IMG/VR virus record: IMGVR_UViG_3300048032_000456
Location: 1 to 23,323 of that record
Direction: 5' to 3' (one strand)
Source: a virus
Length of the DNA stretch: 23,323 bases
Shown here: positions 1-21,241 of the stretch, piece after piece
Numbering within the stretch: position 1 is the stretch's first letter
How the letters are laid out: each line of letters begins with the position of its first letter
Made by a program: the position numbers and the translations under genes
Notes under the pieces: generated by a model
What the model was told of the DNA's origin: nothing
The model's input: the letters and a program-made list of their open reading frames with translations, nothing else
The model's database searches: none

Positions 1-26
1 CAGCAGCTGATTTTAATACTTTGTAA
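1..26 (+). CDS. Possible 3' end of a gene cut by the left window edge
   Basis: Reading codons from base 3 gives a short open stretch (AADFNTL) ending at TAA 24-26. Eight codons are far too few to identify a protein or to exclude chance. The same frame would continue the portal gene that runs off the right end if the molecule were circular (see findings). It is listed only so that the edge is not lost. Confidence 0.22.
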
Positions 27-75
27 TTTGATGAATTGTTCATAATATATAAAATTAAATTAGTATGTATGCGAC

Positions 76-580
76 TCTCGCACACACTTTGATTCGGTAA
101 ATAAAGTCAAGGTAAGCGATAGCTTTCCGCAGATAATATTCCACTAGTCAAGACCGACTGTCTGATTGTGATAGCAATCTGACGGAGCGTGGGCGAGGCT
201 TCGGAGAGTGTTCCTCTTCGAAGACTGTCTTTACTTGTAGAATATTACGAGAGCTCAGCTCGATGCTTTTTCTTGGGAAGAAGTGTGTGTGAGATTTAGG
301 ACGAGGCTGGCGAGTCAAGCAGGGGTTCCCCCGCAGAAATGAACGTAGTGAATACTTCTGCGCTTGACGAGAAGCGCACTCATTTACGAAGTAAATATCT
401 AAGTGTGCGCGAACCAACGAGCTCCGTTCCGTTGGAGAGCTTGAAGGTCGAAAGCAACGTTAGTTGCGCTGAACCTGAAAGCATTGACGAGGCGAAGTAC
501 GAAGTACTTAGCAGAACGAAGTTCCGAGTACATACGCAAGACGATACTTGCGACGGGGACAAGCAATGCTTGGCAACGAA
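76..580 (+). ncRNA. Probable large structured noncoding RNA
   Basis: No credible protein is encoded here, yet complementary segments are packed end to end. A 14-bp long-range stem (76-89 with 281-294) encloses a domain that nests 134-141/240-247, 150-154/227-231, and hairpins 89-93/106-110, 111-117/122-128, 160-168/175-183 and 199-208/214-223. A second part carries serial hairpins at 332-338/356-362 (alternative 360-365/372-377), 374-379/405-410 around 382-387/391-396, 414-419/430-435, 454-458/463-467, 495-500/504-509, 514-517/521-524, 535-540/547-552 and 560-564/568-572; 315-320 can also pair with 439-444. G-T wobbles in several stems (G80-T290, G204-T218, T93-G106) are G-U pairs only in a + strand transcript, which gives the strand. 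The segment is also visibly richer in G+C than its flanks. Phages are known to carry large ornate RNAs such as GOLLD and ROOL; I cannot assign this one to either. A structured DNA element such as an origin is the main alternative. Confidence 0.6.
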
Positions 581-1044: not shown

Positions 1045-1052
1045 TATATTTG
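1045..1052 (+). promoter_or_regulatory. Possible Bacteroidetes -7 element (TATATTTG)
   Basis: TATATTTG matches the Bacteroidetes TAnnTTTG consensus. A start near 1059 would give a leader of about 42 bases for the gene at 1102. No TTG lies at the preferred -33 distance (the nearest, 1032-1034, is only 10 bases upstream), so it is weaker than the element at 1489. Confidence 0.35.
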
Positions 1053-19014: not shown

Positions 19015-21241
19015 TGATTTATGCGTAGTTTTAAAGGACTTTATACCGTCTAAGGTATTGATATCTAGAAACAGAAAAAAGTCTTTTAAATATGGTTATG
19101 ACGCAGATTTAGACATGATTGTGATATCCAGGGACGGCATGGTTGGTGATGTTGTTCGTATCAATAGCCTAAACATAGCACTTCCAAAAAAACCAAAAGA
19201 AGTATACAGAAGGTCATCTGAAAAAAAAGACCAATATTGGGAAGCTTCCGAGTATCCAAAAGCACTTAAACCATTGCAGACCATATTTCAATGGAATGAA
19301 ATGAATAAGGATTTCAAGGAGACTTGGGTTCCTTATATCGAGAATGAGTTTGACAGAAGGGAGAATGGGTTTTGGTTTATGAACAACGGAAAACCCGTGT
19401 ACATAACTGGTACACACTACATGTACTTGCAGTGGACAAAGATTGATGTGGGTAGGCCAGAATACAGGGAATCAAACAGAATATTCTTTATATATTGGGA
19501 AGCGTGTAAAGCAGATGATAGATGTTACGGAATGTGCTATTTAAAAAACAGACGTTCTGGTTTTTCGTTTATGTCTTCTGCTGAAATAGTTAATCAAGCA
19601 ACAATAACGTCAGACTCTAGGTTTGGAATACTATCCAAAACAGGTAGTGATGCTAAAAAAATGTTTACAGATAAGGTTGTGCCTATATCAGTGAACTACC
19701 CATTCTTTTTCAAGCCAATACAAGACGGGATGGATAGACCAAAGTCAGAGCTTGCTTACAGAGTTCCAGCTTCTAAACTCACTAGGAAATCTATATCAAA
19801 CACCAGCGTCACAAATGACCTGCAAGGATTAGATACTACTATCGACTGGAAAAACACAGGGGACAATAGTTATGATGGGGAAAAATTAGCTTTATTAGTG
19901 CATGATGAAAGTGGTAAGTGGGAGAAACCTGACAACATCTTAAATAACTGGCGTGTAACAAAAACTTGTTTGCGTTTAGGTAGTAGGGTTATAGGTAAGT
20001 GTCTTATGGGCTCTACTTCTAACGCCTTAGACAAAGGAGGGGAAAACTTTAAAAAACTATATTACGATTCAGACCCAACCACAAGAAATTCAAATGGACA
20101 GACAAAAAGCGGGCTGTATAACCTATTTATCCCGATGGAGTGGAACATGGAGGGTTTTATTGATATGTATGGTCAGCCTGTTTTAGATTCTCCGAAATTA
20201 CCAAAAGTTAGTACCAATGGTGATTACATTCACCAAGGGGCATTAGAATATTGGCAAAACGAGGTAGATAGTCTTAAAAACGACCCTGATGCGCTAAACG
20301 AATATTATAGACAGTTCCCTAGAACAGAGTCTCATGCTTTTCGAGATGAATCTAAAAACACCATATTTAACCTAACTAGAATATATGAGCAAATAGACTA
20401 CAATGATTCTTTTGCTATAAAGTCCACAGTGTCAAGAGGTAACTTTCATTGGAGAAATGGACAAAGAGATACCGAAGTTGTATTCAGCCCAGAAACCAAA
20501 GGAAGGTTTTTCTTGTCATGGATTCCTAGCAAGGATTTAATGAATAATGTAACAGAAAAGAACGGTAGGAAATATCCTGGTAATGCACACATGGGTTCTT
20601 TTGGTTGCGACTCCTATGATATATCTGGAACTGTAAACGGAGGAGGTTCTAAGGGGTCTTTACATGGAATGACTAAGTTTCACATGGAAGATGGTCCAAC
20701 AAATATGTTTTTTTTAGAATACATATCAAGACCTCAAACTGCTGAGTTATTCTACGAAGATGTATTGATGGCTTTACATTTTTATGGTATGCCGATACTT
20801 GTGGAAAATAACAAGCCAAGGTTGTTGTATTATTTAAAAGAAAGAGGATATAGAGCGTTTTCTTTAAATAGACCAGATAAACACAAAAACGTTTTATCTA
20901 AAGCAGAGCGAGAGTTAGGAGGTATTCCGTCATCGTCTGCCGTAATCTCTGTTCACGCAGAAAGCATAGAAAGTTATATAGAAAACCATGTGGGAGTACT
21001 TAGAGACCAAGCAAATATGGATTTTGGAAGCTGTGGTAATATGTTTTTCAACAGGACTTTGCTTGATTGGGCTAACTATGACATCAACAATAGAACAAGG
21101 TTTGATGCCACTGTAAGTTCTGGGTTTGCTATTATGGCAAATCAGTCACGCAAGAATATAGGACAAGAAAAACGTAATCAAATAAATATTAACTTTGCAA
21201 GATACAGTAACAAAGGTTTTGTTAGTGAAATTATTAAATAA
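18992..21241 (+). CDS. terL: Terminase large subunit (DNA-packaging ATPase/nuclease)
   Basis: The 749-residue frame carries an ATPase domain with a variant Walker A loop, LKNRRSGFS (184-192), a Walker B-like LALLVHDES (D305, E306) and a coupling-motif-like CLMGSTSN (337-344). The nuclease half has MGSFGCDSYD (Asp of an RNase H-like fold), FFLEYISRPQTAELFYED and PILVENNKPRLLYYL (Glu). It pumps DNA into proheads and cuts it at headful or specific sites. It precedes the portal by 2 bases. Its start is odd: the only clean in-frame codon is TTG 18992, whereas TAATG at 19012-19016 gives an ATG one base out of frame with the conserved DLCVVLKDF start. A one-base error there, or a non-ATG start, would explain it. 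Confidence 0.93.
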   Translation: MQKEGLNNDLCVVLKDFIPSKVLISRNRKKSFKYGYDADLDMIVISRDGMVGDVVRINSLNIALPKKPKEVYRRSSEKKDQYWEASEYPKALKPLQTIFQWNEMNKDFKETWVPYIENEFDRRENGFWFMNNGKPVYITGTHYMYLQWTKIDVGRPEYRESNRIFFIYWEACKADDRCYGMCYLKNRRSGFSFMSSAEIVNQATITSDSRFGILSKTGSDAKKMFTDKVVPISVNYPFFFKPIQDGMDRPKSELAYRVPASKLTRKSISNTSVTNDLQGLDTTIDWKNTGDNSYDGEKLALLVHDESGKWEKPDNILNNWRVTKTCLRLGSRVIGKCLMGSTSNALDKGGENFKKLYYDSDPTTRNSNGQTKSGLYNLFIPMEWNMEGFIDMYGQPVLDSPKLPKVSTNGDYIHQGALEYWQNEVDSLKNDPDALNEYYRQFPRTESHAFRDESKNTIFNLTRIYEQIDYNDSFAIKSTVSRGNFHWRNGQRDTEVVFSPETKGRFFLSWIPSKDLMNNVTEKNGRKYPGNAHMGSFGCDSYDISGTVNGGGSKGSLHGMTKFHMEDGPTNMFFLEYISRPQTAELFYEDVLMALHFYGMPILVENNKPRLLYYLKERGYRAFSLNRPDKHKNVLSKAERELGGIPSSSAVISVHAESIESYIENHVGVLRDQANMDFGSCGNMFFNRTLLDWANYDINNRTRFDATVSSGFAIMANQSRKNIGQEKRNQININFARYSNKGFVSEIIK

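Follow-up and report, generated by a model that had tools for sequence, protein, structure and literature searches.

In the Pseudomonas phage tf, 14 nicks lie in the sequence TACT/RTGMC, all on one strand, and 11 of them fall in the half of the genome proposed to be packaged first; the recognition sites of its terminase contain palindromes (PMC3517423). Rembedalsseter carries 13 nicks at WACTRTGAC, also on one strand, and 60 related phages show enrichment of the motif, which clusters near one end and is found both in and out of genes; the purpose of such site-specific phage nicks has been unexplained for about 50 years (PMC11780129). Localized nicks of a similar kind occur in other LUZ24-like phages, T5 and phiKMV-like phages. 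Regarding structured RNA, GOLLD and ROOL are large structured noncoding elements of phages, the 5' part of GOLLD being less conserved (PMC12286853), and phage mRNAs may carry structured 5' leaders. The locus described below brings together a folded domain, probably RNA, and a one-strand array of the 9-mer TGATTGTGA.

The window, meaning the whole stretch of DNA analysed, is a virus record of 23,323 bases with GroEL/GroES, an amidase and a terminase. The terminase is 64% identical to that of the spring-water podovirus MW202828 and 43% to those of Flavobacterium elemo phages, and the phage is an unclassified Bacteroidota phage of a previously undescribed group. No DNA relatives were found among 50,697 phage records; searches with groEL, a neighbouring gene and the core motif gathered about 14 viral contigs as relatives. 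L078, L080, L083 and L084 proved unrelated. Among the relatives covering the place, as well as in L026, a noncoding region of ~0.65-1 kb separates a leftward, early-like arm (primase-helicase, DnaD-like loader, exonucleases, resolvase) from a rightward arm with groEL, tail genes and terL. L026 is a copy of the phage region within a Maricaulis MAG, likely misbinned phage DNA. The landmarks of this region in the window, outside the folded modules, are as follows.

1-44, minus strand: 5' end of the first leftward-arm gene, cut by the contig end, with its ATG at 44; gene order as in L002, L003 and L010
651-680, plus strand: conserved core GATAAC-TGTG-GTTATC-TTATGATTGTGAAC, the best conserved stretch of 12 aligned sequences
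927-994, unstranded: invariant inverted repeat GTGGC (927-931) / GCCAC (990-994), arms 58 bp apart, shortly before the rightward promoter
1045-1052, plus strand: Bacteroidota-type -7 promoter box TATATTTG, which most relatives share in the equivalent position, at the start of the rightward arm

Homologues of the first leftward gene have 216-247 amino acids in L002, L003 and L010, and a PHROG search with the shorter gene that L005 has there gave no match. In the core, a short inverted repeat precedes the 9-mer copy that anchors the polar array (670-678), and the consensus of the core across relatives is GATAN..NTATCGAATGATTGTGAA. The GTGGC/GCCAC repeat is probably regulatory DNA. Runs of G or C stand at corresponding places (~690-860 in the window, L002:8890-8910, L015:1545-1590, L007:65-85), sometimes on opposite strands between relatives, and some could form G-quadruplexes, for example GGGTTGGGTGGGTGGGG. 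Genes for tRNA-Glu(TTC) were found in the leftward arm, ~1-2 kb from the noncoding region, in L002 (6974-7046), L003 (7169-7241), L005 (7673-7747), L009 (3311-3383) and L010 (83-154). Three contigs (L007, L033 and L008, each at position 1) end within 40 bp of the core; this could reflect a genome end or an assembly branch point, and as a sign of a terminus it is suggestive only. The control region is a probable terminus region of the genome.

An earlier note, made from the window alone, had proposed that 76-294 forms a nested + strand RNA domain closed by a long-range stem. Its parts, together with the neighbouring junction, are listed here.

76-89, plus strand: 5' strand of the closing stem, pairing with 281-294
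281-294, plus strand: 3' strand of the closing stem, pairing with 76-89
111-128, plus strand: small hairpin GGTAAGC-GATA-GCTTTCC, without mismatch in L002 and with one in the window and L003
134-247, plus strand: long internal helix 134-154/227-247 with conserved mismatches; pairs change among relatives
160-183, plus strand: hairpin holding one TGATTGTGA copy (163-171); L003 has a different, longer, still paired hairpin
199-223, plus strand: 10-bp hairpin, invariant in sequence in all three homologues
251-261, plus strand: short hairpin GAGC/GCTC, lengthened in L003 by CACCC-GAGA-GGGTG
314-368, plus strand: three-way junction of stem 314-320/362-368 and hairpins 322-332 and 333-361, recurring in L016

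All helices listed in that note are present in the sequence, and RNA folding of 70-300 recovers 76-89/281-294, 134-154/227-247, 160-168/175-183 and 199-208/214-223 in the minimum free energy (MFE) structure; helix 89-93/106-110 is absent from it, and the domain is best described without this helix. The fold reaches -82.1 kcal/mol, compared to -63.0 +/- 4.3 for dinucleotide shuffles (z -4.48), and none of 200 shuffles was as stable, as expected if the structure is selected. However, this high stability is not specific to the + strand: RNA of the minus strand is about as far from chance (z -4.59) and so is the segment under single-stranded DNA parameters (z -5.82), thus stability alone cannot pick the molecule. 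Longer segments are unusually stable too (60-620, z -4.1; 60-960, z -5.2), structure continues beyond 294 with the junction at 314-368, and a further closing stem is predicted at ~62-71/531-540. The domain 76-294 is one module of a noncoding region of ~1 kb between the divergent gene arms.

When the window was aligned with L002 and L003, 96.2% of the pairing was kept over the 62 pairs compared and four pairs had changed on both sides, while sliding the partners by 1-3 columns as a control kept 33-49% and gave no double changes. The covariation score was reached in 19 of 500 column shuffles, so that the covariation from these three sequences is good but not overwhelming. Pair 141/240 is C-G in the window and G-C in the relatives, pair 144/237 is C-G against U-A, and G80 of the closing stem pairs as G-U in the window and as A-U in L002 and L003. 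L003 has replaced hairpin 160-183 by an unrelated hairpin with the pairing kept, and its extension of hairpin 251-261 carries a GNRA-type tetraloop (GAGA) on the + strand. At the level of sequence comparison, these data show the domain structure to be under selection, compensatory changes having preserved it among the closest relatives, as the earlier note had suspected. In the three sequences, variation that passes through G-U affects five pairs on the + strand reading and no pair on the minus strand reading, whereas variation through A-C affects none and three pairs, respectively; the comparison of variable wobbles hence favours the + strand in the window group, which upholds this part of the earlier proposal. 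For L004-L006, whose domain is analogous, the same comparison favours neither strand.

The exact domain is known in just three copies, which leaves few sequences behind the covariation. A covariance model of 118-263 matched, on the + strand, only the window, L002 and L003 among 26 sources, and its weak minus-strand matches fall at the same three places. Other strong folds stand at the corresponding place in L004-L006, L015 and L016, those of L009 and L010 being weaker on the + strand; altogether, most of the nine sequences folded have a strong fold there. The junction 314-368 keeps the same architecture in L016 with compensatory stem changes (GTCAAGC/GCTTGAC vs GACAAGT/ACTTGTC), and tandem GA/AG is found in the junction stem of L009 and L010. 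It is missing from L002 and L003, indicating that modules come and go. To the right of the core, the 12 aligned sequences gave no covariation-supported consensus fold, the invariant GTGGC/GCCAC repeat apart. Long open reading frames across the domain are broken by stops in relatives, in agreement with the earlier claim that no gene explains the segment. In the more distant relatives, then, the domain is replaced by unrelated folds, and no protein is encoded.

Regarding its identity, the earlier note had named GOLLD and ROOL as candidate families. Rfam searches of the window and seven relatives at the gathering score returned no family but tRNA, GOLLD, ROOL and OLE gave no match on either strand even at E<=10, and the domain itself matches no Rfam family at that threshold. 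Pattern matches in the genome contigs L023, L024 and L025 and in the viral contig L013 look like chance, as they lie in unrelated, gene-bearing DNA. The domain is thus a real, narrow and fast-changing structured element, not GOLLD or ROOL, and probably RNA.

In 12 related contigs (496,249 bases), all 107 copies of the 9-mer TGATTGTGA are on the same strand and the opposite strand has none, compared to expected counts of 3.5 and 2.6; the reversed control is near 0. Its copies in the window are at 163-171, 670-678 and 19116-19124, and it is likewise confined to one strand in L002, L003, L005, L009, L010 and L015. Fuller genomes have 11-19 sites. By gene context, 31 of the 107 sites are sense, 54 antisense and 22 intergenic, and the letters of TGATTGTGA are fixed while flanking third positions vary. 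The flanks of 93 distinct sites hold no conserved box beyond ATGATTGTGAA and a weak preference for C after it.

The array is densest at the core (651-680), and the gaps grow roughly geometrically away from it, about 1.2-fold per site. One case is G004, a circle of 60,777 bp through the core that closes by terminal overlap, where the first seven gaps leftward from the core are 750, 715, 1325, 903, 1369, 2225 and 2613, and the next seven are 2089, 4113, 3972, 3069, 10091, 9515 and 18028. The growth is 1.26-fold per site in G004 (Spearman 0.96), and 1.22-fold in G008 and 1.48-fold in G009, both assumed circular; the Spearman correlation of gap on order is 0.93-0.96 in these three. Partial contigs give weaker trends: 1.07 in G001, 1.19 in G002 and 1.16 in G011, with Spearman values of 0.51, 0.81 and 0.43. 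This array was not found in MW202828 or elemoA. MW202828 (L036) has other repeats at 43754-51777, CGGTGTCGT and ACGACACAA, which are hairpin-capable and crowded near the divergence point; since they begin at that point and lie mostly just upstream of early genes, they are not counted as the same thing. A leftward-arm protein (L047:12610-13182) matches the C-terminal, box-binding domain of DnaA just under the Pfam cut-off and is a candidate reader of a 9-mer.

The same fold could be read in other ways. Placed on the minus strand, at the 5' end of the mRNA for the leftward early genes, it would be a leader that tunes stability or translation for the first early gene. The position suits such a role: in the leftward direction the closing stem is followed by an A/T-rich spacer and, ~30 nt after its end, by the start codon. 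Most relatives resemble the window in having a strong stem whose near edge lies ~25-35 nt upstream of the leftward start, even though the sequence differs; the minus-strand stability agrees too. However, the variable wobbles fit the + strand and break on the minus strand, and a leftward promoter box is not consistently found to the right of the domain, which makes the leader unlikely. On the + strand, no conserved Bacteroidota-type -7 box was found upstream of 76. The selected object could also be DNA, forming hairpins or binding protein near a genome end for terminase cutting, packaging or nicking. This would suit the single-stranded DNA fold, the density of the polar array at the domain's region, as near the tf end proposed to be packaged first, the three contigs ending by the core and the palindromes in the tf terminase sites. 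The G-U pairs, the GNRA-type loop and the tandem GA in stems are nonetheless features of RNA, the assembly of G004 runs circularly through the core, and strain variation in a hypervariable region could also produce contig ends there; a DNA element is again judged unlikely. A diverged GOLLD, ROOL or other described large RNA is barely credible: the phage locus is large and noncoding and a tRNA-Glu gene lies ~1.2 kb off in L002 and L003, but this gene is on the opposite strand in another operon, and the family searches were empty.

For the array, Chi-like sites shielding the phage from host RecBCD/AddAB that enters at a packaging cut at the core would need the polarity seen relative to the core, and partial recognition at each site would select geometric gap growth. 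A host Chi should be abundant, but none of 148 Bacteroidota genomes, a set outside which the host may fall, is rich in the 9-mer, the maximum being 94 copies in 4.2 Mb on both strands; this reading is thus not supported and is improbable. Pairing of a core RNA with early mRNAs, the 9-mer acting as a small RNA seed, was rejected as sole cause: the polarity runs on through the late arm, whose mRNA carries the same word and not its complement. A promoter role was rejected as well, the flanks of the 93 distinct sites showing no further conserved box, and evasion of type III restriction would account for the polarity but not for the 30-fold enrichment.

The explanation preferred, tentatively and at somewhat under an even chance, joins a selected, fast-evolving + strand RNA module in the control/terminus region with a TGATTGTGA array of nickase sites. 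During infection, + strand transcription of the domain would yield a noncoding RNA built of modules or a long RNA leader with structure. The function of this RNA would depend on its fold and not on its sequence, which would allow the sequence to change with architecture and location maintained. By analogy with tf and Rembedalsseter, the array would consist of recognition sites of a phage nickase, and its dense region would be the neighbourhood of the physical genome end packaged first. The RNA domain and the array share a place and may be functionally linked. One such link, that a control-region RNA exposes GAAUGAUUGUGAA through the short inverted repeat and pairs at every genomic site, guiding or priming nicking or replication, is highly improbable; as this word is the one repeated on one strand, it could pair with the complementary strand at the sites.

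If transcribed, the domain would represent a new structured phage RNA that keeps its fold and place and not its sequence, of a kind that current family models miss. With the array, the signature of site-specific nicks extends to another phage lineage, unrelated to the first, and gap growth of ~1.2-fold per site from an anchor provides a quantitative rule for any explanation of the nicks, directly testable in phages already sequenced.

Comparing the locus with the described systems, GOLLD and ROOL, known as large RNAs made while the phage grows and assembling into homo-oligomers, are likewise large structured noncoding elements in phages; however, the sequence-structure match is lacking, and the domain lies in a divergent control region instead of a tRNA island. 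It adjoins a start codon as structured 5' leaders of phage mRNAs do, but the strand evidence is opposite and it is longer than 200 nt. For the array, tf and Rembedalsseter differ in host phylum and in consensus (TACTRTGMC and WACTRTGAC there, ATGATTGTGAA here, with GATTGTGAA sharing 6 of 9 letters); because of the consensus, the array is regarded as analogous in its working, without being a LUZ24-like member. In tf the motif is oriented away from the dense end, here towards it, and the nicks are proven in those phages and putative here. On the side of likeness, each array consists of a 9-mer restricted to a single strand, with 13-14 sites per genome in those phages and 11-19 in the fuller genomes of the window group. 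The sites gather near one end (a putative physical end here) and occur within genes, of either coding strand, as well as between them. The gaps widen from the dense end in tf, 1.14-fold per site by our calculation (Spearman 0.75), as they do here (1.22-1.48 in the three longest contigs), and in both tf and the window group the early arm starts next to the crowded end. Judged by analogy, then, the array matches those nicked experimentally in its polarity, its one-end crowding and its indifference to genes.
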